This document shows positions 15,620 to 64,000 of a DNA stretch of 64,000 nucleotides, in pieces (position 1 is the first letter of the stretch; the number at the start of each line of letters is the position of its first letter). The notes below the pieces were generated by a model that did not search any database, was not told the DNA's origin, and was given only the letters and a program-made list of their open reading frames with translations. The stretch covers positions 310,001 through 374,000 of the forward strand of contig NW_025407853.1 of NCBI RefSeq assembly GCF_003324165.1, written 5' to 3'. This stretch comes from Naegleria lovaniensis. Its lineage: Eukaryota; Heterolobosea; Eutetramitea; Acrasida; Naegleriidae. The position numbers and the translations under genes were made by a program.

Positions 15620-18600
15620 ATGAAGCCTTCAACAATGCAACGTGTTCCCTCTATTACGCCCACAAATTCTGCGTTAGGAGCTTCATCATCACCTGCTACC
15701 TTTCCATCAATAGTCATTTCTTCCAAAGAGCAGGTTCAACACGCTGGAAAAATTTTAGATCAAAATTTGGTGAAGGACAGCGATTTTATTGATGTTCAAT
15801 TGTTGTCGAAACACCATATCGTTACCGGAGATGATGTAAAGTATCTGTGTTGCTTTATTAATAATGTATTAACATGAGTTTATTGTATGATGATATTTTG
15901 AAAATGATGATGACAACGACGAACTACATTTGGATTGATTTATATTAATACTACTTCTAAATTTATCAATATAACAACACAATGTGGCAATGAAAATTAT
16001 TATCATCAAACCGTGGTTCACGCTATAGTTTTTTGTGAAAAAACAATTTGTCGCTTTACCGGATCCAATCTTTGAAGAATATCGTCGCCTTGAATACAAA
16101 TGCTACATGGGAATTTTCCCTGAAATTCATCGAGCATGGATTACAATTGACAACAAATTCTTCATCTGGAGTTATTTGGATGGCAGTGATTTCAATGAAT
16201 ATGATGAATTGGATCAAGTTATTATTAGTGCTGGGCTTGTTAAGCCAAAACCAGGCGTATTTAAAGACTATGTCAAGTATTTGTTGGTATTGGCAACACC
16301 TGTTGAAGTTGCACTAGTAGCACTTACATTCAACAACAACAATGTTGCTTCACCTTCGGGAGCCGCCCACCTTGATCAACAACATTTAACCTTCGACTCG
16401 CAAACAGGTGCTGTTTACTCGGAAATGGAGCTATTCTCGACAAATTACATTATTCCATCGGATAATGTCAACATGATCAAGATTATAGGTACTCAAAACG
16501 GAAGAATATTCATGTGTGGAAAGGATGGATGTTTGTATGAATTAACATATGAACCTGAAGAAGGATGGTTTAAAAGCAAATGTAGGAAATTGAACCATTC
16601 ACAAAGTTTTGTTGGTATTCTAGTACCAGCATTCCTCAAATTTACACATGATGACCCAATCATAGATATTGTTGTTGATGACACTAGAAATTTCTTATAT
16701 ACACTTTCCGAAAACATGACAATTGATGTCTACGATCTAGGAAAAGATGGAACGGGAATGAACAAGATTGTATCCTATTCTAAATTGATTGCGGATGTTA
16801 TGCGAAAATTCCCTAACACAAACAGAGACTATTCCAACATGAAAATCATATCTATTGCTCCAGTAACATCATATGAATCGAAAATTATCAATTTAGTTGC
16901 TATTTCCTCTAAGGGTGATCGTTTATTCTTCAGCACTAATGCTGCAAGTGGATCTACAGTTGGTTCTCCTGTTTTATCTCTGATGGACATTAAGCCTCTC
17001 TCGCTACCAAAGTCTAGTTTACATCGTAGAGTTAATGAGATTCATGAGTGCTTTTATAAAGATGGAGCTTTTATTATGGCAGGTGCCAGGAGTGAAGAAG
17101 TCGACGGCTTGGTTTGCATCTCAATGGAGAGAAAGACCATTGCAAATACATACCCAGAATATTCAGTTCCTATTTATGAGAATATGAATGTTATCAATTT
17201 GGACAATGGACGAACTCACGCCATTGCAGAAATTCCACTCTATTTAGATCCATTGCTTGTTTCTTCTGATAATGCCCTTAATGAAATTACAGTTCAACAT
17301 ATTAAGCCACCAAGAGAATTTGTGTGTCTGAGTAGCAGTGGTATGCATTTACTTGTTAAACTCCGCCCAGTTGATTTCTTACAACAGATTTTGCAGCAAA
17401 CACAACCCGAAGAACTATTGAAAAGCTTTGTCAGTAGATATGGAGAAGATGAAACATGTGCCATGTGTATAATGTTGGCATGCTCTCCACCTCCTTACAA
17501 TACCATTACCGATTCATCTCAAATTGTTTATCTCGACGATCATCAATTGAATAGACGAGCTGAAGAAACATTCTTCAGATTTGGAGGCATTCCACAATTC
17601 GAAATTGTTTCTGACACCAGAAGAAATTTCCTTTTCACTAACGACATTATGGGAGGTCCTGTGAGCACTCAAGATATCAGTCACAGCGCTAAACACAACG
17701 GACTGTATCTGTACTTGTCTCGATTATTACGACCTCTATGGAATAGTCCTCTCTTTAATTATAAGAAGGTGGACGAAAACGAATTGGTGATATCATCAAC
17801 ACGGTACAGCTTGCGACAGCTGAAATACATGTTGCAAGCATTATTGGCCGTTCTCAATTTTATGGACAGATATCCTCACTTGTTTGGAGAAGCTCAATCA
17901 GCTCATGGTAAAACCATTCAAGACAAATATGTTGATCTTGTTCACATCAAAAAAGACGAGGAAGCAAAGAGACTTGAACAAAAATCGCTTAACTCTCTTT
18001 ATAATTTATTGAAACGAAGTTATCAAGCTTTACTATTCTTCTTCTTTATGACAAGATGTGATATTGGAGACAGATTAGCCCAAGTTCCTCCAAATAGAGT
18101 AAGTCGTTTGGCTGAAGTGACTTTCCGTAACTTGATCCTTCAAGATCAAGGAGAAGAAGTCATGAGAGAAATGGTTCGTCTTGTTATTCTAAGCGGAGAA
18201 AATGTTGAAACCATTTGCAACGAGCTAAAATCTTGTGACGTATTCTTTAACCAATACGATTTAGAAGAATACAAAGCACTTAACCTTTTGGAAAGAGCCA
18301 AAATTCAAAAAGATGAATCCCTATTGATGAACTCATTGGACATTTACAAGAGAATTGCCGGCCAAATTAATGTATTGGTAGTGTGTAAAGAATTTCAAAA
18401 ACTTGGATGTTATTCTGGAGCTGTGGATTTGGCGTTGAGCAGTGCTGAACTTCAAGACCCAAAGAATTTGGCATTAGAATGGGTGAAAGGAGGAAAATCG
18501 GCTCTTGACGTCGCTGGTCAACAAGCTTATCAGGCCAGACTTGAATGCTATTATTGTGCATTGGGTGTTCTTGAAGATTTTACCAAGAAGAGAACCGGTC

Positions 18601-19763
18601 TACAACATGATATTGAATCAACTACAGCCTCAGAGACTGTCAATAGAGAGAAAATGTTCAACGCTGTGATTGAGAAAATGTCAAAATCACGAGATCCACT
18701 TTTCCATGAGACGCTTTATTTGTGGTTGATTGAACACAATTTCTCTTCCAAACTCCTAAGTCTGAATACGCCATACATTGAAGACTTCTTATTGAAGCAA
18801 AACAAGCACTACGACGAACTCTCAACCTATTACATTAATAATAGAAGATTTGATAAGGCTGCCAAGGTTCTTCAAAGACTTGCTGAAACAAAGAGTTCAG
18901 ATCGAGATCTTGACACGAGAATTCAAAATCTTACTCATGCCATTAATTATGCCAAGGCTGCTCAAACTCAAGACGATTTGTTAACAATTCTACAAGACAA
19001 ATTAGATGTTGCCAGAATTCAAAAGAGAGTACTTTCTGAGATTCAAATGTTACCAAAGACTGATGAAACAGTGAATGCCATTACAGCTCTCAATAGCTCT
19101 CTTCTTGATCTTAACACTCTCTACAATACCTATGCTGAGCCAATGGATTTACTTGAATCAAGACTGTGCATTCTTCATTGTGCTCGTCACAAAGATGATA
19201 AGCTTATTCAAGAGCTATGGAATGAACTTATTGATATTTCTATGAAGAATGGATTGCAATTCACAGAGGATAAAATTGCAAGCCTAGGAAAGGATTTATC
19301 GGGAATCTTCTTCCCACTTGAGTTTATTTGTGGACAACTTGAAAAGAGAACTCTCGACAAGCAACCTTCGGACTGGGTGATAAAATTGATGAAAGAAAAA
19401 GTTGGCATCAGACATCTAGATCTTTACAATGCCTATCACAATCTGTTTATTTTACTGAGTCCTGGATCTAGTACACTTGACGACGATTTAAGTATGTTTG
19501 CTCAAGGTAAATATGGAGGCCTTCCAAACACCCCACAAATGCTACTTCGAATTTTGGACAATATTACCAGAATTCTCAATGATTGGATTCATGAAATTTT
19601 CAATCAAACATATGACAGTTACTCTGCCCAACAAACATTTTCATCAGGTGACATTAAGAAGGATATTGATGAATACATGTCTGCATTGGATACCTTCAGC
19701 AATACTAAAACTCAAGAGATACGAAGACAATTTTCTGATATCCTTCGTAAAATCAATAAATGA
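15620..19763 (+). CDS. NUP155: Nucleoporin NUP155 (Nup170/Nup157 family)
   Basis: Exon 1 is 15620-15835 and exon 2 is 16029-19763. The intron at 15836-16028 has a GTAAAG donor and CTATAG acceptor. The product is 1,316 residues, near the usual 1,390. A Ser/Thr-rich start leads into a beta-propeller with the family signatures HRAWITIDNKFFIWSYLDGS and GLVKPKPGVF, then YLLVLATPVEV. After the propeller comes a long alpha-solenoid typical of the family. Known role: scaffold of the inner ring of the nuclear pore, binding NUP35/53, NUP93 and the membrane. NUP35 is encoded about 2.3 kb downstream on the opposite strand. The 3' end is 39 bp from the convergent mL44 gene. Confidence 0.93.
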
Positions 19764-49234: not shown

Positions 49235-49876
49235 TCAATTAAAATCTCTGACAGCTAAATACATAATCATATTATCCTCTAAATTATTCGAAAGTTCCTC
49301 CTTTGTGAAATTAAATAATTTACAAATGGTTTGTGTATCTACATGACGCTTCAAATATTCATCAATTTCCTTTTGATCCGAAATTATTTTCAAATTACTG
49401 TCACCATTTGTAGTAAAATTCGAAAATATATAGTTTTCGAGATTTGGATTTTCATTTTCTTTACAGGCAACACATAGCACAGCCTTCTCCGATGAATGAT
49501 CATTTGCTCCAAAATTCTTGAACGCTTGTCCAATATTTCTCTTTGGATTTAATTTATACAATAATTCGGTATGAATATTTTGAGTCTTCCACCCTCCGGA
49601 ACTCGTTTGAGCATTATTGTTGGCACTACTACTCGTGATATTTTCTGAGTTTAATTGATCTACTGTTTCCACCTCTTTAGGTTCATTCTTTGCCAAGACG
49701 ACATGATGAAGGGTTGTTTGCAGAACAAACAGGCTCGGAATCATTCTGGGATTGATACAAGCAGCTACGCATGTTGGCTTTTGAGCATGAACCAGTTGTT
49801 GAATGAAGGTACAATTTTGCAGTAACAGCACTTGCACTTGAATTTTAGAAGATGCAGAAGGAATTGAAAAAATCAT
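49235..49876 (-). CDS. KEOPS/EKC complex subunit Cgi121/TPRKB
   Basis: A 213-residue, intronless protein. It follows the Cgi121 pattern: an N-terminal strand-helix (VQVLLLQNCTFIQQLVHAQ), NPRMIPSLFVLQTTLHHVVL, then TELLYKLNPKRNIGQAFKNF with FGAND, a strand (KAVLCVAC) and a final helix set. Two Asn/Ser-rich insertions enlarge it slightly over the usual 175-180 residues. Known role: it binds tRNA and the Bud32 kinase in the complex that makes t6A37 on ANN-decoding tRNAs, such as the tRNA-Thr in this window. Confidence 0.8.
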   Translation of the reverse strand: MIFSIPSASSKIQVQVLLLQNCTFIQQLVHAQKPTCVAACINPRMIPSLFVLQTTLHHVVLAKNEPKEVETVDQLNSENITSSSANNNAQTSSGGWKTQNIHTELLYKLNPKRNIGQAFKNFGANDHSSEKAVLCVACKENENPNLENYIFSNFTTNGDSNLKIISDQKEIDEYLKRHVDTQTICKLFNFTKEELSNNLEDNMIMYLAVRDFN

Positions 49877-49946: not shown

Positions 49947-50701
49947 TCAATTTCTCCATTTTGGAATATAAGGACTTGGTCTCTTTGATGCATCTCCAAG
50001 ATATCCACTCAAATTTGGCAAACTTTCAACATGTTTCATCAACTTATTCAAAGCAGGATACTTTTGAGCAAAATCGTCTCCAAACAAGAACAATTGTTCG
50101 TACAATGCATCATACAAGACAAGATCGGCCCAACTCAATTCATTTCCCACCAAGAATCCCTTCTTTGATTGTTCCAAAAAGGATTCAAACTTGCCCAAGA
50201 AGAAGAGCATTCTTCCTTCTTTCCATGTCTTGATATCATTGACTTTTGTTTCATCAGTAGTATTTCTATGCAAACGATAGGCTTCGGAACGGAATTCATC
50301 CACTCCGAGAACATATTGCAAAGCAAGAGCATCTAGCAAGGCAACGTTTTCAGAGGAATTTGCAGCTTGTTGTGATGGAAGGAGCTTACCGAGCTCTGCC
50401 AAATATTGGCAAATAGCAATAGACTGAGCAAGTAACGTCTTGGAGGAAACAATTTCAAGCAAAGGTACTTGACCGAATGGAGCTTGTTGTTTCAGATCGC
50501 TCTCTGCAAAGCCAGTAATAAACTTGCGTTCAAAGTGTGGAACTTGTCCGTGGAGAGCAATCAAATAGGCAGCTTCAGCTCTCTAAAACACATGCCAAAG
50601 ATTTAATAATGATGATGAATATCAATAATATATAATTATTGATCGACTGGGAAAATACTTACAGCTTGAATGTTGAAGTAGTGGAGGATGAATTCCGACA
50701 T
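49947..50701 (-). CDS. Sigma-like glutathione S-transferase
   Basis: Exon 1 is 50663-50701 (13 codons) and exon 2 is 49947-50582; the intron at 50583-50662 has a GTAAGT donor and TTTAG acceptor. The product is 224 residues. MSEFILHYFNIQARAEAAYL places a catalytic Tyr at position 8, as in sigma/alpha/mu classes. FGQVPLLEI gives the cis-Pro, and AQSIAICQYLAE is the GSH-binding SNAIL-like motif. An all-helical C-terminal domain follows (FLVGNELSWADLVLYDAL). The resemblance to haematopoietic prostaglandin-D synthase types is general. Cytosolic detoxification is inferred. Confidence 0.88.
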
Positions 50702-51069: not shown

Positions 51070-54000
51070 CTACTTTTTGTTGAGCAAAGAAATCGATGAC
51101 AATAAAGCCAAGCCGGGCTTTCTCTCGTCCATTTTGAACTGTTTAACAAGTGAGAACTTTTCTTTGAGCTGTATCTTGAGCTGGGTTAGCTGATGTCTAG
51201 CAAGAATGTTCCTGGCCACCGCTTGAACTAGTAAGAGTTTTGATGGACACTCTTTAACATATCTCATTTCTTGATTTCGTTGCTGAATTCCCCTCAAAAG
51301 TGCTTGCAGTGTGATTACTGTTCTCGTCTGTCCAACAGCTATGGCGTGCTGATTTCGAGCAATGAATGACCGAGCAATAGCCTGTAATACATGTATTCTA
51401 TTCGTTTCTGCAATGAAATGACGTTTGCAGTTGAGTTTTCTGTCACGAGACTGAATTATCAAAACATGGTCCTGGAGTTTGTGTAAATTTTGACGTACCA
51501 GGTTACCTTTTACCACAGATTCCATCATGAGAGTTGCTTGTTGCAATAAGGCGAAATTGTGCTTGCGTTCATGACAACTGATCATGGCTGCCTGAATGAG
51601 GGTTAAGTGGTCCATGTACTCCATGTGTTTCTTGCAAGTGCTGCTCTTTGTAGCCAATGCTTGAATTAGTTGAATGGATAAAACTTGGGCTTGGCAGTTC
51701 TTGACAGCGTGTAGTTGCCTTACTTTTGCTTGAAGCTTGGAACAAGAGTTCTTCATTGACTCAAATTTGCATTGAATGGATTTTCGTTTCATGAGCGCGT
51801 TCATACATTCAACAAGTGTTGTTTTCTTTGAAAGGAGAGTTCTGAATTCTTTTCGGGCTATGAATCCTCTCATGCTAGCCTGCACAATCCAAGATACTTC
51901 TGTTCTCTTCATGATAGAAATGGTAACCTTTGTTTTAACAAGGTTCTTTCGACACAAGTATAATCTGGACAGACACTGCAACTTGGTTAACATTTGCAAT
52001 TGATTCCCTTTTTCCTTAGATGCAATCAAAGCTCGCATCATGGATTGAACGGTGATAACATGTCCTTTCATGTTCTCATATTTCTTTCGATCTAGATGTC
52101 CATGGTAGATGGCTTCAATCTCGGAAACCTGCCTCATCAAAGAGTGAGATTGAATCATGGTCAATCGCCTCCTTAAGAAAGCTTGAATGACCGCCAGTTT
52201 GTCCAATACGCTTGTCATGTGTGTTCGTTCGACGGCAGCCTTTAGAAGAGCAGAAAGTAATTGTGCTCGATTTCTTTCTACGTGGAATTCTTTGCAGCAT
52301 TGATAACGTCTCACTAAAGATTGTAACTGTTCATTGCTGCATAATTGAAGTTTCATGTTCGTTCTCAATCTATGACCTGCTATTCTAGACTGTATGAATA
52401 TGATAGCTTGCATCTGAACGGCAAACACCTTGCGTTCAGTATTTCCTTTGACTAAGGCCTGGACAAGCAAACCACACTTGTTCATTAAAAAATTTCTACG
52501 TGCTGCATAGCCACTCATGGATGCTTGAACAACTGTCATAGAATGTTTAACCTTATTACTTTCCAATCTAATATGGGCTGATCTAAACATGGCTTGCCCG
52601 GAAGTAATACTTGTGACATGATCTTTTAGAGACTTTTGAACAGTTAATCGTTGGGCAACTGCTTGAATGTTGACGATAGCATTGAGATTAACAGCTTTCT
52701 GGGAAATAGCGTAATGCTTCCTCGTCATTGCTTGAATGAAAGCAATGCTGTTAAGGTCTTTCTCTTTTCTTGCCCATGCTACTTTTTGTTGTGACCATGA
52801 ATGTAATTTTTCTAGCAATCCTAGTTGTGTTTGATATTTTCTTGCACATTGTGATCTTCTTATTACCGCTTGTAAAGTTTGAACTCGTTCCAAGTCTTTC
52901 TTGAATTGATGAGTACATAGGGTTGCTCGTGCTGCAGTGTGTAGCTTTGTAATTTGATCGGTAACTTGAACAAATCTCGTTCGTTCAACAATTGCTACAG
53001 ACAGAGCAGTAAGTGTTCGTACTGCTTGCATCGACTTCTTCATAAATGATAATTCCAAGTTTCCCTTGACTAAAGCTTGAATTTGCTCAATACGGCACAA
53101 ATCTTTTTTCAAATTATTTCGTACGATAGAGCCATCAGTCAACGCTTTCATGACAGCATACTTGTCTTGTTTCTTATTTTCTAAATATCTCCTCGATATA
53201 GCCTGCAACAATGTGATATGTTTCAATGATTTGAGTGCTGGTTTTGACAGGCGTGATCTAGCAAAAGCTTGCATCTGTATAGTAACGCGTTTCGTTTGTT
53301 CGAAATTGCGAGTGTATGGGATGGAGCGTGCCATGGCTGAGAGTAAATTTGCTAATTGTAACCTTGACTCAATTTGTTGCCTTTCCATGTGACCTGTAAT
53401 TGTAGACTGAATTACGATTACATTTGACTGATCATCATGAAATCGCTTTCTCTCTATTGAGGACAGAAAGAGTGCCTGGAGTGTCCATATTCTTTGCAAT
53501 TGGCTCTTGAATACTTTTCTTTGAAGAGCACTCCCTAAAAAGCCTTTAATGGCCACGATACTTGAGCACAAGCTGTTAAAGCTGTGTTGTACTAATGATG
53601 ACTTGGCATAAGCTTGAATTGTTTGAGTGTTGTCCCTCAAAAGCAAAAAATTCTTTCTACAGACGATTCTGATCAGCGCTTGAACATGGATAATACTGTT
53701 TTTGAAATGAGATAAATACATTTGTTCCCGTCTTCTGCGAACAAATGCTTGTACTTGTGTAATTGTGTCAACTTCAACAGTTTTGAGTTTTTGAGCATTT
53801 GTAATTCGAATAAAATTCTGCAACTGAGTTAAACGTTCTAAATCAATGAAATGATTCTTTCGATGGGTGGATCCCTTAAGAAATGCTTGCAAGTAGATCA
53901 GCTGTGGTATAGAGTTGAAAATATTCTTTTTGTCAAGTGCTGACCGAGCTGATGCTTGTAAAATATGAATTGCAGAAAGATATTTTAAATAACCTGTCCT

Positions 54001-57000
54001 TTGCTTGTATGCCTGTAGCGTGTCGTCAATAATAGAAAGTGACTCTTTGGTTTCAATAAATTGTTTTCTTTGCAGTAGTCCTCTACATAAAGCTTGCAAC
54101 AAAATAATGCTGTTATGTATGTGCTCATTGTTCGTTCTAACAATTTTCGCACGCGAAGCTGCTTGTACAAGGCAAACAGTTTTGTCAACAAATATCCGAA
54201 AAGCTTTTCGCTGTTCAAATCCTCTTATTGATGCTTGCACACAGAGAATTTCGTGATGGTAATGTCTAAGAGTATTGACTTGCTTCTTCTTTCTAGCAGC
54301 AGATTGAATGGTAAGCACACTGTTCATTTGTTGTTTGTATTGTGTTCTTGCATTGAAACCGCGAATAACTTGTTGGATATTCTTGGTGCTGGAATTTTTT
54401 TCTTTGATTTCCTTTCTTGTGATTTTGCCTAAAATTACGGCTTGCAATGTCGGGATCTTGTTCTGGCAGTTATTAAGCCGTTGTTTTGCAATAAAGCTTC
54501 GAGTAAGTGCTTGCAGAATCAATATTCTTCTTTTTTCTAAAGAAAAATTGGATACGATTCGTTCATGTTGGTACACTTGCTGTATCTTGTGAATGGCAGT
54601 CCATGATCTGTCATAATGTTTTCGAGTGGAAAACCCACGCAACACAGCCATTATTAAAAAGGAACTTTGTTTAGCTTCGTTCATTCTCTTCTTGCTCAAA
54701 TGGGATAAGACAATGGCTCCAACGACATGTATTTGCTGGAATCTGTGCAAGCAATCGAGCTTCTGAATATAGGATCTTGACTTTGCTTGCATGATCAGGA
54801 TTTGATTCAACGAAACATGATGCAGTCTTCTACTTTGGTGTCCTTGAGCCATTGAGGAAAGGAATGACGCTGTCTTCACCAATGTTGTATGATGTTGCCC
54901 TGTTAAGTAAGATTTGGCAACAATTTGAATAGTTTGCAAAAAATTCAACTGCGTATGCATTGACTTGGCGGTCAAATGTCTTCTAATCACTGCCTGTAGA
55001 ATGCGTAATTGTTGTTGTTTTGATTCATGTTCTGCACGAACCAACTTTGACTTCATGTTTGATTGCAAAGCCTTTACAGAATTAACGTCCTGATGTACAC
55101 GATCTCTGTGACATGAGCCTTTGAGGGATGCCTGTAATAGAAGCACGGAGTTAGTGATGTGTTGAAATTTGGTGTATGAACGAGAGCCAATTAAAAAACT
55201 TTGAATCGACACTGCTGAACCAACCATGTCCATATGCTTATTGTGGAAAGTAGTTCCTCTAACTTTGGCCTGAAGTGTATGGATAGAATTTACATTCTTA
55301 AAGTATTGGTTTCGAGCAATAACTCCTCTAGAAAGACAGGTAATTGCTGTAGATTGTTGTTGACAGCTCACAAATGTTCTTTTGATCATAAATCTTCTAA
55401 CAGCGGCTTGAAACAGTTCTAATCGTTGGATACTTTCTCGTTTTTCACGCTGTATGAAATATTGTTTTGCTACAAGCTGCAGTTTCACAATGCATGAGTT
55501 ATGCATTTCCAGTTCAGTGGTAGCAAGTCTACTTTTAAATTTTGCCTGAAGAATCAACACACTGTTTTTTTCTGCAGAATAATCCCTCCTTTGGAAAAGG
55601 CCTCTCAGAGCAGTCTGCAACTGTGATGCCACTTGTTTAGTGAGAGTAAAGTTTCTTTCGGAAAGAGCTTTCCTGGAAACAGCCTGCAGGCTCAAGCTGT
55701 GGCTTCTTTCAACAGAGAGAACATTTCTATGAATAGCGCCTTTGAAAAATGCAATAATGACATTACTCTGTTCAAGCAAACCAGATATGCCCCTTCGTTG
55801 GTTTTGAGCTCGTATTACGGCTTGAATTGTTACAATTGGCCCAGTAATATTGTGCCTCATTGAATTGGACTGTTCTCTGCGCATTACTCCTCGTGCAACA
55901 GCTTGAATTTTCTGAATTTTCTTAAAATTCGAGCAACAATTGCCAGTAGCAATGCTTTTTAGAGCCATGCATTGGATTGTTTTAACATTGTTCAAGTTCC
56001 TCCTGAAGATTGAGGTGGTATATTTTGCATTGATAAGTGCCTGGATTTTTCGGATTTTCTCGAGCTGAGCGAAAACTTCTTGTCTTCTGGAGTTTCCTCT
56101 CAAAAGTGACTGTAATATCGTAATTTGATAAATCATATTTTCAGTACTGCTTCTAATTAGTATTTTTCTTGAATTTGACTGTAAATAAATAACCAATTGT
56201 TTGGATAAATAGAGTTGCTGACGTTGGTTGGCCTGCCGTGTCAAACTTTGTAATGTAGTAATTCTACTCATATTCTCCTTTAGTGACGAAAACGTGAGAC
56301 GACCACGAATTCTGGCTTGCATTATGGAGATGGAAAATTTTTGTAGAGCTGCGTTCATTCTGCATTTTGCTCCATGCCCTATGGCTGAGAAATTAATAGA
56401 AAGAGAATATAATGAGCTCAGCCTTGTTCTTGTTTTGTGAGCCTCGTGTAAGGTACAAAGTGTTCTTGCTGCATTAGTCTTCATGACTTCAGTTGCGAAC
56501 AAAGAACACACTCGTATTAATTCAGTTTCGTCTATTATTCTTGTGTCTTCCATTATTTCATCTTCTTCACCAAAGTATGGTCTCATTCGAGGTATTTCAC
56601 AAGTTTCTGGATAGCAGTCATAGTTAAACCTAATAACTGCCTCCATAAACTCAACAACATACATTGGAATGCATTTAAATTGCAAAGGAAAAAATCGAAT
56701 TTGGTCAATATAGTGAAATAATTGGATTTGTATCCATATTAGGACCAATGGAGTAACCGAGCTATTCTCAGCTGCGTTAGCAGTTTTTCTCAAATCTATT
56801 GAGCTTGAATAAAAATGCTCATTCATTTTGGTTAAGGCTGATTTAAGTCGATCTGAATCATAGTGGTGTAGTAGTGTCTCTTTAAATAATGAAGATAGTG
56901 GATGATCATCCGAGATATGCATTAACGACTTGTACTTTTCTGCAAATTTCTCCGCTTCGTCAACACTGATTTTTTCAGTAATGAATTCAATGATTCCTCG

Positions 57001-57816
57001 TACTGCTTCTCCCCTAGCATCCAAACGTTCAATTTCTCTCCTCAAAATTTTTGGTGTAAGATTTGAAACAGACAAGCCAAATTCAATTTCTTTTTCGGCC
57101 GTGACTAGCATGGCTTCAGAATCGGACGAGTCTTCTCTAGCAGCTCTTGTTAATTTTGGTTCTTCATAAGAGCACATTTGTGACATTTCATCGACCGACG
57201 AAACTTTTGCCATGTCTTGACTTGAGTTGGGAGTAGCAGGCGTTTTCTCCTTTCGTTTTGTGAAAATATTCAAAAAGCCTTTAAGACGCGATTTTTTCTT
57301 CTCTAAAACTTCTGAGCTAGCAATTACAACTTGGGAATTGCTTGTTAAATCTGGTGTATCAGCCGAAGAAGATATTTCTAATTTCGTAGGACGGCCTATC
57401 ATAGGAACAGAAGCATTCGAGTAAACACTGTGACATGTGGAGATGTTATCAAAAGTGTCTTCGCTTTCCTCAAATTTTGCCGATTTTCCAGATCTCCCTT
57501 CAATAATGCTGAGGCGAAAAGAACTGGAAACGTTCATGGCAGGCGTTCGTTTAAGAGGAATATTTTGAGATTTTTCAGATGACTTGGGAGATGATCGTTG
57601 TTTTTTTTCCGTGTCACCACCAATTGTCTGCATTGTGTACGTACTTGGATTTGAAATTAGAGAGTTAGTGTTCATCATTTGTGAGGTAATAGCCTCGTCA
57701 GGGCTAGTAGGTGTTTTAGAGCTGCTACTTTTTTTTCTTCTCAGTTTTGTGATCATGGTTGGAATTTTGTCAAACAAAGATTTTGTCCTACGCTTTTTTG
57801 GTTGTTGTTCCTCCAT
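51070..57816 (-). CDS. Giant IQ-motif-array protein, 2,248 residues
   Basis: One uninterrupted ATG-started exon. Residues 1-220 are Ser/Thr/Lys-rich and disordered. Residues about 240-480 form a helical, globular-looking domain I do not recognise. From about residue 490 to near the end there is a regular array of degenerate IQ-like units with period about 23 residues and consensus (I/L)QAxxRxxxxR, for example LQAKFKSRL, FQAAVRRFMIKR, IQAVIRAQNQRR and LQAVIRRHLTAK. About 70-75 units are implied by length over spacing. IQ motifs bind calmodulin or related EF-hand light chains and would make a long helical rod. The plan recalls ASPM/Asp spindle proteins, but I see no CH domain or motor. It may organise microtubules, centrioles or cortex; this is inference. 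Confidence 0.8.
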   Translation of the reverse strand: MEEQQPKKRRTKSLFDKIPTMITKLRRKKSSSSKTPTSPDEAITSQMMNTNSLISNPSTYTMQTIGGDTEKKQRSSPKSSEKSQNIPLKRTPAMNVSSSFRLSIIEGRSGKSAKFEESEDTFDNISTCHSVYSNASVPMIGRPTKLEISSSADTPDLTSNSQVVIASSEVLEKKKSRLKGFLNIFTKRKEKTPATPNSSQDMAKVSSVDEMSQMCSYEEPKLTRAAREDSSDSEAMLVTAEKEIEFGLSVSNLTPKILRREIERLDARGEAVRGIIEFITEKISVDEAEKFAEKYKSLMHISDDHPLSSLFKETLLHHYDSDRLKSALTKMNEHFYSSSIDLRKTANAAENSSVTPLVLIWIQIQLFHYIDQIRFFPLQFKCIPMYVVEFMEAVIRFNYDCYPETCEIPRMRPYFGEEDEIMEDTRIIDETELIRVCSLFATEVMKTNAARTLCTLHEAHKTRTRLSSLYSLSINFSAIGHGAKCRMNAALQKFSISIMQARIRGRLTFSSLKENMSRITTLQSLTRQANQRQQLYLSKQLVIYLQSNSRKILIRSSTENMIYQITILQSLLRGNSRRQEVFAQLEKIRKIQALINAKYTTSIFRRNLNNVKTIQCMALKSIATGNCCSNFKKIQKIQAVARGVMRREQSNSMRHNITGPIVTIQAVIRAQNQRRGISGLLEQSNVIIAFFKGAIHRNVLSVERSHSLSLQAVSRKALSERNFTLTKQVASQLQTALRGLFQRRDYSAEKNSVLILQAKFKSRLATTELEMHNSCIVKLQLVAKQYFIQREKRESIQRLELFQAAVRRFMIKRTFVSCQQQSTAITCLSRGVIARNQYFKNVNSIHTLQAKVRGTTFHNKHMDMVGSAVSIQSFLIGSRSYTKFQHITNSVLLLQASLKGSCHRDRVHQDVNSVKALQSNMKSKLVRAEHESKQQQLRILQAVIRRHLTAKSMHTQLNFLQTIQIVAKSYLTGQHHTTLVKTASFLSSMAQGHQSRRLHHVSLNQILIMQAKSRSYIQKLDCLHRFQQIHVVGAIVLSHLSKKRMNEAKQSSFLIMAVLRGFSTRKHYDRSWTAIHKIQQVYQHERIVSNFSLEKRRILILQALTRSFIAKQRLNNCQNKIPTLQAVILGKITRKEIKEKNSSTKNIQQVIRGFNARTQYKQQMNSVLTIQSAARKKKQVNTLRHYHHEILCVQASIRGFEQRKAFRIFVDKTVCLVQAASRAKIVRTNNEHIHNSIILLQALCRGLLQRKQFIETKESLSIIDDTLQAYKQRTGYLKYLSAIHILQASARSALDKKNIFNSIPQLIYLQAFLKGSTHRKNHFIDLERLTQLQNFIRITNAQKLKTVEVDTITQVQAFVRRRREQMYLSHFKNSIIHVQALIRIVCRKNFLLLRDNTQTIQAYAKSSLVQHSFNSLCSSIVAIKGFLGSALQRKVFKSQLQRIWTLQALFLSSIERKRFHDDQSNVIVIQSTITGHMERQQIESRLQLANLLSAMARSIPYTRNFEQTKRVTIQMQAFARSRLSKPALKSLKHITLLQAISRRYLENKKQDKYAVMKALTDGSIVRNNLKKDLCRIEQIQALVKGNLELSFMKKSMQAVRTLTALSVAIVERTRFVQVTDQITKLHTAARATLCTHQFKKDLERVQTLQAVIRRSQCARKYQTQLGLLEKLHSWSQQKVAWARKEKDLNSIAFIQAMTRKHYAISQKAVNLNAIVNIQAVAQRLTVQKSLKDHVTSITSGQAMFRSAHIRLESNKVKHSMTVVQASMSGYAARRNFLMNKCGLLVQALVKGNTERKVFAVQMQAIIFIQSRIAGHRLRTNMKLQLCSNEQLQSLVRRYQCCKEFHVERNRAQLLSALLKAAVERTHMTSVLDKLAVIQAFLRRRLTMIQSHSLMRQVSEIEAIYHGHLDRKKYENMKGHVITVQSMMRALIASKEKGNQLQMLTKLQCLSRLYLCRKNLVKTKVTISIMKRTEVSWIVQASMRGFIARKEFRTLLSKKTTLVECMNALMKRKSIQCKFESMKNSCSKLQAKVRQLHAVKNCQAQVLSIQLIQALATKSSTCKKHMEYMDHLTLIQAAMISCHERKHNFALLQQATLMMESVVKGNLVRQNLHKLQDHVLIIQSRDRKLNCKRHFIAETNRIHVLQAIARSFIARNQHAIAVGQTRTVITLQALLRGIQQRNQEMRYVKECPSKLLLVQAVARNILARHQLTQLKIQLKEKFSLVKQFKMDERKPGLALLSSISLLNKK
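51130..56370 (-). repeat. Protein-level tandem array of IQ-like units (about 69 bp each)
   Basis: The coding repeats have a 23-codon rhythm visible as recurring reverse-strand codons for Leu/Ile-Gln-Ala. Units are diverged at the nucleotide level, with no obvious identical neighbours, so the array is old rather than recently expanded. Confidence 0.7.
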
Positions 57817-57827
57817 CTTTCCTAAAT

Positions 57828-59285
57828 TTAGTTTTGGTACGTAATTTTGGGATTGTGATTTGTTGAAATTTCAGAAATATTCATATCTTCTAAATCTGAA
57901 TCGTTTTCTTCACCGTGTATATCGTTTTCTGTCACATCGTCAAAAGAAATAGGATATGATCTTTGGTTATGATTTCCATTATTAGAGGTTGTTGGAGTTG
58001 TTGAGGCAGCTCCGTTTGTTGGTCTTGTGAAATTTGTTCGTGGAGATAAACTTCCTCTTGGTGAATAAGGAATTCCATTGACTCCTCTAGGTGACAACAT
58101 ATTTACTCCTCTTGGAGTGAGTAATGCTGTTGAGTGTGATCGATTGGTACGACCACCACTTTTTGAAGAAGATGTAGAGCCGAGTGAGCTCTTGTTTGAA
58201 TTTGCTTTTCGAGAGAGTTTAGCATTTCTTTCGTCATTGTGATGTGGTGAAATAGGTGTTGATTTGGAAATGATAATGGCTACAGGCTCCTGTTGTAGAT
58301 TGTTGGAAGTCTGTTTAAATAATGACGTATTTGTCCATAGTTGTGGTGAATACGACGGAGAAGAGTTTTTTGGTGATGCATCCAATTGAAAATTGTTGTT
58401 CCCGTTCCTATTCATGTAAATAATTCTTGATAATCCATCTTTTGAAGTTTCGTCGGAAGTGATGGTATTGTTATTGCTCATCATCATGACATTGGATACT
58501 GAAACACTGTAATTACTGGCTGTAATTGCTGCAGACTCAATGGGGTTCAAATGGGCTTGTTTTGGACTTGTGCCTACCCATGATGAATACCTTGGTTCGT
58601 TGTGGTGATGGCGAGGACTGGCATTACTGCTGAGAGAGGTAGGTCGAGGAGGAAGATTGAGAAGTGGGATGTTTCTCTTTGTGGAAAACTGTTGTTTTGG
58701 AGTGTTGTTCGGAGAAGAGGAGGAGAGAGCAGCGTTGATTTGGTGCTCTGTAGTTCTTTGTACATTCGGAGAGGATGATGAAAAACTAGTTGCAAGGACA
58801 GAGGAGGCTGATAGTACATTTGGAGAGTTGGGGTCATCATTGCGAGTTGTAGATGTGGGAATGGAAATTGGAGTGGAAGATGTTGGAAAAGGAGACGAAG
58901 AAGGGTTCCCATATAGTTGGTTGTTGTTGTTGTTTGGTGATATTGGCATAATGGGAGAGGAAGAAGAATCGCTCAACGATGGTTGTTTGAGATGCCTACT
59001 ACTGCTCGTTCGTCGATTTAGTCCCAGCGTTTGGCTTCGCTTTCGGATGTTGTTGATAGAAGCAGTGCTATCAGTGAAACAAGCAACATCATCATCCTGC
59101 TCATGGTTATCATTGTACGGATGAGCATTGCTTTGTGTTGATGAACCCATCAAACCTATTTCTTCATGATCCGGTGGTGCATCGTTGATGAATTGATGTT
59201 GCTGAAATAGAGGCGTGGACTGTACATGACGTAAAAGCGAAGGAGCTGAGGAATTGATTTTTTCGGGATTGATATTGTTTCCCAT
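57828..59285 (-). CDS. Ser/Asn/Pro-rich disordered protein with possible N-myristoylation site
   Basis: A 485-residue protein starting MGNNINPE. Gly2 with small and polar following residues fits N-myristoylation, though position 6 is Asn rather than Ser/Thr. The rest is low-complexity with many SP/TP sites and a repeated block LTPRGVN, LSPRGVN, YSPRGSLSPR around residues 385-420. The C-terminus is acidic. No folded domain is seen. The stop is only 11 bp before the start of the giant IQ gene on the same strand. The frames differ, and no donor/acceptor pair I tried joins them in frame. Confidence 0.65.
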   Translation of the reverse strand: MGNNINPEKINSSAPSLLRHVQSTPLFQQHQFINDAPPDHEEIGLMGSSTQSNAHPYNDNHEQDDDVACFTDSTASINNIRKRSQTLGLNRRTSSSRHLKQPSLSDSSSSPIMPISPNNNNNQLYGNPSSSPFPTSSTPISIPTSTTRNDDPNSPNVLSASSVLATSFSSSSPNVQRTTEHQINAALSSSSPNNTPKQQFSTKRNIPLLNLPPRPTSLSSNASPRHHHNEPRYSSWVGTSPKQAHLNPIESAAITASNYSVSVSNVMMMSNNNTITSDETSKDGLSRIIYMNRNGNNNFQLDASPKNSSPSYSPQLWTNTSLFKQTSNNLQQEPVAIIISKSTPISPHHNDERNAKLSRKANSNKSSLGSTSSSKSGGRTNRSHSTALLTPRGVNMLSPRGVNGIPYSPRGSLSPRTNFTRPTNGAASTTPTTSNNGNHNQRSYPISFDDVTENDIHGEENDSDLEDMNISEISTNHNPKITYQN

Positions 59286-62928: not shown

Positions 62929-64000
62929 ATGCGACCACAAAGCAGTGGCTCCTCCCGTTCCAACAGCCGGTATGAGAGTCGGGAGTTTGAGTTGAAGGAT
63001 CATCATCAATGTGACCCCGTGGTTGCTAATGAAGGTATCAATAAACAAAGCAACCCAATTTCGGAAATTGATAATTGTCAAAATGTTGACAAGGGTTCAA
63101 TATACAACACAAATTCTCAAAAAACATTGGTTTGTGAAGAAGGGAATGATCCACTAGAAAACAGCAACGAAGATTTTATTAATTATGAGACTTCTCATAA
63201 TTTGAAGATGGATGAGAATTGTAATTCTACCATTCATCAACATGAGCTCACACCTGTCACGGTTGAATGCTGTACCTCGATGACGACAACCCCTGTCCTT
63301 CAACAGACCACAATTACCACTGATGTAAATGCAGAAACAAATTCTGCAAGTCCAAATATTCAAGAATCTTCATTGTCATACACGACCTCAACAATGAATC
63401 AACCGTGTATCAATACAACAGCGGAATCACTTCATTTACGATCTTCTGTTGCAAACGAGGAAGAATTGCTTGAAGATGATCAAGTGTTTAAGCCAAGCGA
63501 CAAAATATTAATCGAGAATGCTAAGGAAATTGTGACGGATACGGACTTTTCCTTTTCGTGGTTCTATAAAGTGACACATGGATGGAATTCGATTCGAAAA
63601 CGATTAATGCATCGATTATTGTGCCGATACGCACACGAGGGAGATTTCAGTGACGACGATGAGGAAGAGAAGATTCAAGACACGAGTAAACCATCCCAAA
63701 ACAACAACAAAGTGGAATTGCCCAATTCTGTTCCAAATAAGGAACAAGAAGATGACACTCCAGAAATAATGACCGAGAGAAAGTTTGAAACCGTTCACCT
63801 TAACGACCGAGAAAAGAACAAACTCTCTCGAAAACGTAAATGGCCCACCAATTACGTTCGAACTACCAAGTATACCTTAATTACCTTCATTCCTCAAAAT
63901 TTATTTGAACAATTTAGAAAAGCCATCAATATTTATCTATTGATTACTGTGATTGCCGTTCTCATTCCTGACATTTCTCCTATATTTCCACCAGCAGCCG
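62929..64000 (+). CDS. P4-type ATPase (phospholipid flippase), N-terminal part; continues beyond window
   Basis: The frame is open from the ATG at 62929 to the window end, 357 complete codons. The first 285 residues or so are a long hydrophilic extension rich in Asn, Ser, Thr and Glu, with an acidic DDDEEEK cluster. Then the conserved P4 start appears: [20 protein letters not shown], then [20 protein letters not shown] with SPIFPPA. This matches the first transmembrane segment of aminophospholipid translocases (VRTSKYT..TFLPKNLFEQF). The typical cytosolic N-terminus is shorter, so the extension is notable. The catalytic DKTGT lies outside the window. Confidence 0.88.

Follow-up and report, generated by a model that had tools for sequence, protein, structure and literature searches.

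The lever arm of myosin V consists of six IQ motifs. IQGAP is a non-motor scaffold with IQ motifs, and Sfi1 forms a long helix for EF-hand light chains with repeats of about 33 residues and a core motif of its own. To our knowledge, long IQ arrays outside the myosins are mainly known from ASPM, and we know of no settled answer to the question why dozens of motifs are needed.

For ASPM, the available part of a review gives 24 IQ motifs in fly, 60 in mouse and 81 in human, and lists an ASH domain, a CH domain, the IQ array and a C-terminal HEAT/ARM region as defining features (PMC10047693). In heterolobosean myosin 2, two IQ motifs are treated in the available portion of a preprint (PMC12139777). 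For Naegleria fowleri a single RGS-RhoGEF with putative N-terminal LRRs was described; the terms 'IQ motif' and 'calmodulin' are absent from the available text of that paper (PMC9283941). Among the best matches in the open-licence literature, none dealt with a Naegleria protein of the IQ-array or ASPM kind.

Here a very long IQ array of Naegleria lovaniensis was investigated. It is encoded in a window of 64,000 nucleotides, which is the whole stretch of DNA analysed.

Results

Open frame and 5' end

The array gene, the frame upstream of it and its neighbours in the window are as follows.
51070..57816, minus strand: open frame that encodes the IQ-array protein (2,248 aa; ORF list, codon score)
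57828..59285, minus strand: Ser/Asn/Pro-rich frame of 485 aa upstream of the array frame, with coding-like codon score and repeated SPRG motifs
16107-19763, plus strand: window neighbour, Nup133-like nucleoporin
49235-49876, minus strand: window neighbour, CGI-121
49947-50582, minus strand: window neighbour, glutathione S-transferase
62929-63999, plus strand: window neighbour, phospholipid-translocating ATPase, start only

Counted from the ATG the array frame has 2,248 aa, and 2,266 aa from stop to stop. At its own base composition, the odds that 2,248 codons stay open by chance are about 10^-68. Three further array ORFs of the same genome supplied a codon model, with which the array frame scored 0.139 and the remaining five frames -0.07 to -0.16. 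The protein of 2,248 residues reported in the first-pass annotation is thus encoded by a frame far above chance, and the observation is confirmed as real and correctly described.

A whole-protein search of the own genome (30.7 Mb, 97 contigs) detected no second copy of the gene. NCBIfam gave no match for the protein. Relatives were found neither in viral contigs (N-terminal region) nor in prokaryote contigs (whole protein); both scans used six short peptide patterns each, so that the negative outcome in such collections says little. As a side observation, matches inside the array gene (C32:361352-362332, minus strand) are given an open frame of 2,403 aa, compared with the 2,266 aa from stop to stop.

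The upstream frame of 485 aa is on the same strand. Its stop lies 11 bases ahead of the array ATG, and it shares 43 bases with the open part of the array frame. It may represent a separate gene or the missing 5' part of the array gene. Both frames could be joined in frame by 72 GT-AG pairs of 35-600 bases. None of these has a full-consensus donor. A near-consensus donor, always the same GTAAAT, is present in six pairs, one of which also has pyrimidine before the AG. A spliced join of both frames is possible but not supported by these putative sites. For a locus without splicing, two genes unusually close to each other, a start further in or a frame difference splitting one gene come into question. 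With a coding-like frame so close ahead of the ATG, the single-exon structure of the array gene is not proved.

Size, period and age of the array

Array and tail occupy the following positions.
51187..56349, minus strand: array of 74 chained 23-residue IQ units, residues 490-2210, net charge +199 (autocorrelation, matrix, profile)
51070..51186, minus strand: basic tail of 38 residues (2211-2248) and stop codon (frame end)

Autocorrelation of residues 491-2240, compared with 100 shuffles, showed peaks at lag 23 (z 17.7), 46 (z 16.7) and 69 (z 14.2), and stayed within |z| 4 at lag 33. An independent position matrix, not trained on the window protein, was built with 47 seed units that came from four further proteins encoded in the genome. 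With this matrix 74 units were chained over residues 490-2210 with a score of 797.9, compared with 9.1 for the best of 30 shuffles. The score was above zero for 69 of the 74 units, and 59 of the 73 unit spacings were exactly 23 residues. When the matrix was derived from all five array proteins of the genome, a second segmentation had 70 of 73 units above zero. An HMM from the four other array proteins gave 80.6 bits for the window protein, with a large composition correction (243.8). The first-pass annotation had described about 70 IQ-like repeats with a near-constant period of 23 residues and proposed to run a repeat model over them; number and period both agree with the units found here.

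The 1,721 residues of the array include six prolines. Three poor units were excluded; the other 71 had a mean pairwise identity of 17%, and adjacent units were no closer in sequence than distant ones. At seven conserved columns the same codon was used in 37.1% of 5,758 same-residue pairs, with 38.5% expected; codon choice is no more alike than codon usage predicts. The units share little identity and their synonymous sites appear saturated, but the signature residues have been kept. The repeat copies are therefore old, as had been assumed before. Between positions 50000 and 60000 four tandem repeats were found at DNA level (periods 3, 8, 9 and 13), and none of them keeps register with the 69 bases of a unit.

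IQ identity and predicted helix

The column consensus of the 74 units is (I/L/V)QAxxRGxxxRxxF, which matches the key columns of the IQ motif. In the second segmentation IQxxxR is kept in 45 of the 70 units above zero, the complete IQxxxRGxxxR in only 11. With the Pfam IQ family (PF00612) one unit reached 25.5 bits in a six-frame search, above the curated cut-off of 20.3; hmmscan of the whole protein gave 17.7 bits, below this cut-off. Pfam families other than IQ were not detected in the protein at E<=1.

In a single-sequence search of the PDB, myosin Va (E 0.0035) was the only chain to reach E<=1. For a profile search, eight non-overlapping pieces of the window protein itself were aligned. Myosin Va was again the top match with E 1.8e-9 over about 145-150 positions. 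The 17 sequences at E<=1 were mostly other myosin IQ regions, together with a few weak non-myosin chains. The matches to myosin Va fall at chain residues 755-912, which we take to lie after the motor domain. Judged by consensus and matches, the array is an IQ array at sequence level. Many of them may bind nothing, given that only 45 of 70 retain IQxxxR.

The alignment of eight pieces was also used for AlphaFold2. Residues 839-1022, comprising eight units, were predicted as one helix over residues 3-183 of 184 with pLDDT 82.5 overall and pTM 0.34. The pLDDT of the first 40 residues was 54-64, and AlphaFold2 readily predicts lone helices for such repeat sequences. The prediction is in line with the helical array suggested by the first-pass annotation. 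At 0.15 nm per residue, 1,721 residues would extend over about 258 nm if fully helical, which corresponds to the rod of a quarter micrometre expected there. A rod near 258 nm is plausible as a model, because AlphaFold2 makes eight units one helix.

N-terminal regions and domain searches

In front of the array the following features were distinguished.
57172..57816, minus strand: Ser/Lys/Thr-rich N-terminal region, residues 1-215, net charge +12 (composition)
57730..57795, minus strand: basic amphipathic peptide, residues 8-29 (hydrophobic moment ranking)
57253..57306, minus strand: second basic amphipathic peptide, residues 171-188, of putative function (moment 0.44, charge +6, ranked without a null)
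56350..57099, minus strand: orphan region, residues 240-489, helical-looking and slightly acidic (no Pfam, PDB or genome match)

According to its composition, the region of residues 1-215 is probably disordered. The 18-residue windows 8-25 and 12-29 have hydrophobic moments of 0.49-0.55 and charges of +5 to +6; they are the best of a ranking without a null. Residues 8-29 are a possible membrane- or nucleus-targeting element. With residues 216-500, a Pfam search up to E 10 was without match and the PDB gave nothing below E 4.1; residues about 240-495 had no other match in the own genome at E<=10. Prediction of the N-terminal region by AlphaFold2 without alignment gave pLDDT 33.3.

Motor, kinase, CH and RasGAP domains were not found in the protein by sequence searches, and Pfam gave no match for LRR, RGS or RhoGEF. 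Regarding CH, there was no Pfam match in the protein, and a genome-wide CH search was without match at the array gene. A CH profile of the own genome, made from 15 domains located near 6 of the 42 places with a match, reached 11.2 with the N-terminal region in hhalign, a score also reached by 57% of 60 shuffles. The first-pass annotation had stated that neither motor nor CH domain is present. This holds as far as sequence tests go (Pfam, PDB and own-genome CH profile). It had also named a CH or kinase domain, found by profile search, as the observation that would make the protein an ordinary ASPM; profile searches found neither. The absence of motor and CH domain stands for sequence methods, and a diverged domain visible only by deep alignment is possible.

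Two candidates were rejected. A CH domain at residues about 355-400, an idea obtained by eye from the pre-array part of the ASPM candidate described below, found no support in profile and shuffle tests. A RasGAP domain as in IQGAP was examined with a profile from 10 of 16 own-genome matches; the hhalign score was 11.9, compared with 17.9-21.4 for the best shuffles.

Array proteins of the genome

The whole-protein search of the genome led to four other array proteins, and searches with two of them added none. The number of at least five array proteins is a lower bound.
L018:3490-8163: C4, ASPM candidate, 1,557 aa, ASH (E 2.6e-11), 24 units above zero
L019:1331-8446: C12, 2,371 aa, 45 units, then LRR and RhoGEF
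L024:2810-9574: C23, 2,254 aa, about 26 units, then LRR, RGS and RhoGEF
C3, 997 aa: 12 units, no other significant domain

The longest array of the five is that of the window protein, which together with C3 has no recognised partner domain. Its best array match in the genome is C4 (29% over 378 residues, E 2e-19). The fit of its units to the C12 matrix (12.4) was closer than to the C4 matrix (10.0), for sets of different size. Pfam gave no CH match for C4. With the CH profile C4 scored 15.5 at residues about 569-629, which was reached by 5% of 60 shuffles (3 of 60), and a very diverged CH domain is possible at this place. C23 is apparently the counterpart of the RGS-RhoGEF of N. fowleri. As candidates for EF-hand light chains, at least 121 matches to PF13499 at E<=0.001 were counted in the genome, some of them below cut-off (150 of 184 candidates scored).

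Some further observations were made in the genome. The N-terminus of C12 is hydrophobic and possibly membrane-spanning, as judged by eye. A RhoGEF match (PF00621) at C31:224338-224454 on the minus strand lies in a stop-free frame of 21,466 aa, about 64 kb, which is either a giant gene or an oddity of frame counting. Family matches with equal or near-equal scores occur on the contig pairs C36/C65, C23/C73, C12/C74, C64/C75 and C27/C93, which suggests uncollapsed haplotypes or duplications.

Discussion

Function of the array protein

We consider it probable that the window protein is a scaffold without a motor, in the shape of a rod that carries calmodulin-like light chains and is anchored by its N-terminal part. 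Light-chain binding, Ca2+ response, anchoring and a place in the cell are what we infer in the following. The C-terminal three quarters would form one very long, positively charged alpha-helix with about 70 IQ motifs at a spacing of 23 residues. Calmodulin or calmodulin-like EF-hand light chains would clamp this helix, ideally one per unit. Being acidic, they would neutralise the array with its charge of +199 and stiffen the helix, which would give a rod with a length of at most about 258 nm. Complete IQ motifs make up only 11 of 70 units, and for this reason Ca2+ may affect how far the rod is occupied and how stiff it is. One end of the rod would be anchored to a cell structure by the N-terminal part with its basic peptides and orphan region. 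Thus arranged, the rod could work in the cytoskeleton as a tether or spacer of great length or as a store of light chains. A bolder proposal is that Naegleria possesses a home-grown set of giant IQ-array proteins, which act as Ca2+-tunable cytoskeletal rulers or springs of a quarter micrometre apart from the spindle and carry a new helical anchor domain. This seems rather unlikely to us.

Relation to ASPM and other explanations

With 74 units the array is on the scale of ASPM, as noted in the first-pass annotation, since 24-81 motifs are given for fly, mouse and human in the available part of the review (PMC10047693). Besides the long IQ array, the features of ASPM were searched in the window protein. 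ASH/MSP (PF15780) had no match in Pfam, CH was found neither with Pfam nor with the own-genome profile, and a C-terminal HEAT/ARM region is missing in the array frame, where only 38 residues follow the array, although the gene might continue in a spliced 3' exon. Because of these three absences, and because C4 has an ASH domain, the protein was not filed as ASPM. On present evidence the earlier separation from ordinary ASPM appears right.

It might still be a paralogue of ASPM without ASH and CH, located at spindle poles, with calmodulin-loaded repeats bridging microtubule minus ends. The ASH-bearing C4 is the best array match in the genome (29% over 378 residues, E 2e-19), and the array has the size expected for such a paralogue from the accessible section of the review (PMC10047693). 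Furthermore, C4 itself has no Pfam CH match, so the absence of CH separates both proteins poorly. However, ASH, CH and HEAT/ARM were not found in the window protein, the pre-array regions of both proteins matched no better than shuffles (66% of 500 were as good), and the units are closer to the matrix of C12 than to that of C4 (12.4 and 10.0, with differing set sizes). In the available text of a paper on the Naegleria spindle, ASPM and calmodulin have 0 mentions, which is weak either way (PMC9036621). In general, we regard such a paralogue as unlikely. The sharing of the array with the LRR-RhoGEF proteins C12 and C23 leads to another explanation, namely a member of a GTPase-signalling set, with the orphan region as a very diverged GAP-like domain and the array as a Ca2+-tuned spacer, a role that it may also have in C12 and C23. 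A RhoGAP profile from 16 of 31 own-genome matches aligned 43 columns at the profile start to residues 216-500. The hhalign score of 19.6 was above 58 of 60 shuffles and above all 40 shuffles of an earlier, overlapping set, but the probability was only 2% and 2 of the 60 shuffles scored higher. With hmmsearch the N-terminal region was first of 203 sequences, yet with 3.4 bits and an alignment at another place than that of hhalign. No arginine finger was seen by eye at the aligned place. The RasGAP profile with 11.9 was well below its best shuffles, and Pfam gave no match. A RhoGAP domain is not proved by these scores, and we regard the membership in a GTPase-signalling set as unlikely.

The giant predicted repeat helix, the many EF-hand genes and the small number of complete IQ motifs would also suit a Ca2+-driven contractile fibre, comparable to Sfi1/centrin or the spasmoneme of ciliates, in which light chains on the helix cause contraction without a motor. 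Period and core of the repeats, however, are those of IQ motifs and not those described for Sfi1, and we know of no spasmoneme-like contractile organelle in Naegleria. We give this fibre very little credence. That the locus is a relic or an annotation artefact, with old repeats left open by chance or drift, can hardly be believed. The strong divergence of the repeats with 17% mean identity fits to it, but the open frame has a chance probability of about 10^-68 and coding-like codon use is restricted to the array frame. Moreover, the signature residues were kept while their codons were randomised (fractions of 0.371 identical and 0.385 expected for 5,758 pairs at seven columns). The scaffold rod loaded with light chains is hence the reading that we prefer.

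Comparison with known systems

The role of the array itself could be studied in N. lovaniensis, where the same array is present nearly on its own, within a candidate for ASPM and next to RhoGEF modules. Such a set might also connect Ca2+ light chains with Rho signalling in an amoeba that is distant from animals and fungi. Should nothing but size and repeats prove new, the protein would be a large but ordinary scaffold.

The lever arm of myosin V has IQ motifs at the same kind of spacing, and its profile match with E 1.8e-9 covers most of an array piece. In contrast to myosin V, the window protein has 74 units and no motor domain was found. It differs from IQGAP, since neither CH nor a RasGAP-related domain was found. 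With Sfi1 it shares a long helix for EF-hand proteins, which is predicted for the window protein, but its autocorrelation period of 23 and its IQ core are not the period and core of Sfi1. The RGS-RhoGEF of N. fowleri has, according to the available text (PMC9283941), the same domain order as C23, which adds an array in front; the window protein is without match to LRR, RGS and RhoGEF. ASPM/Asp is likewise a non-motor protein with a very long IQ array, but its ASH, CH and HEAT/ARM were not found in the window protein, and the genome has a separate ASH-bearing candidate in C4. The window protein would be placed among the non-motor IQ-array proteins. It is of interest there mainly for its length, for the orphan region in its N-terminal part and because RhoGEF proteins of the same genome carry such an array too.
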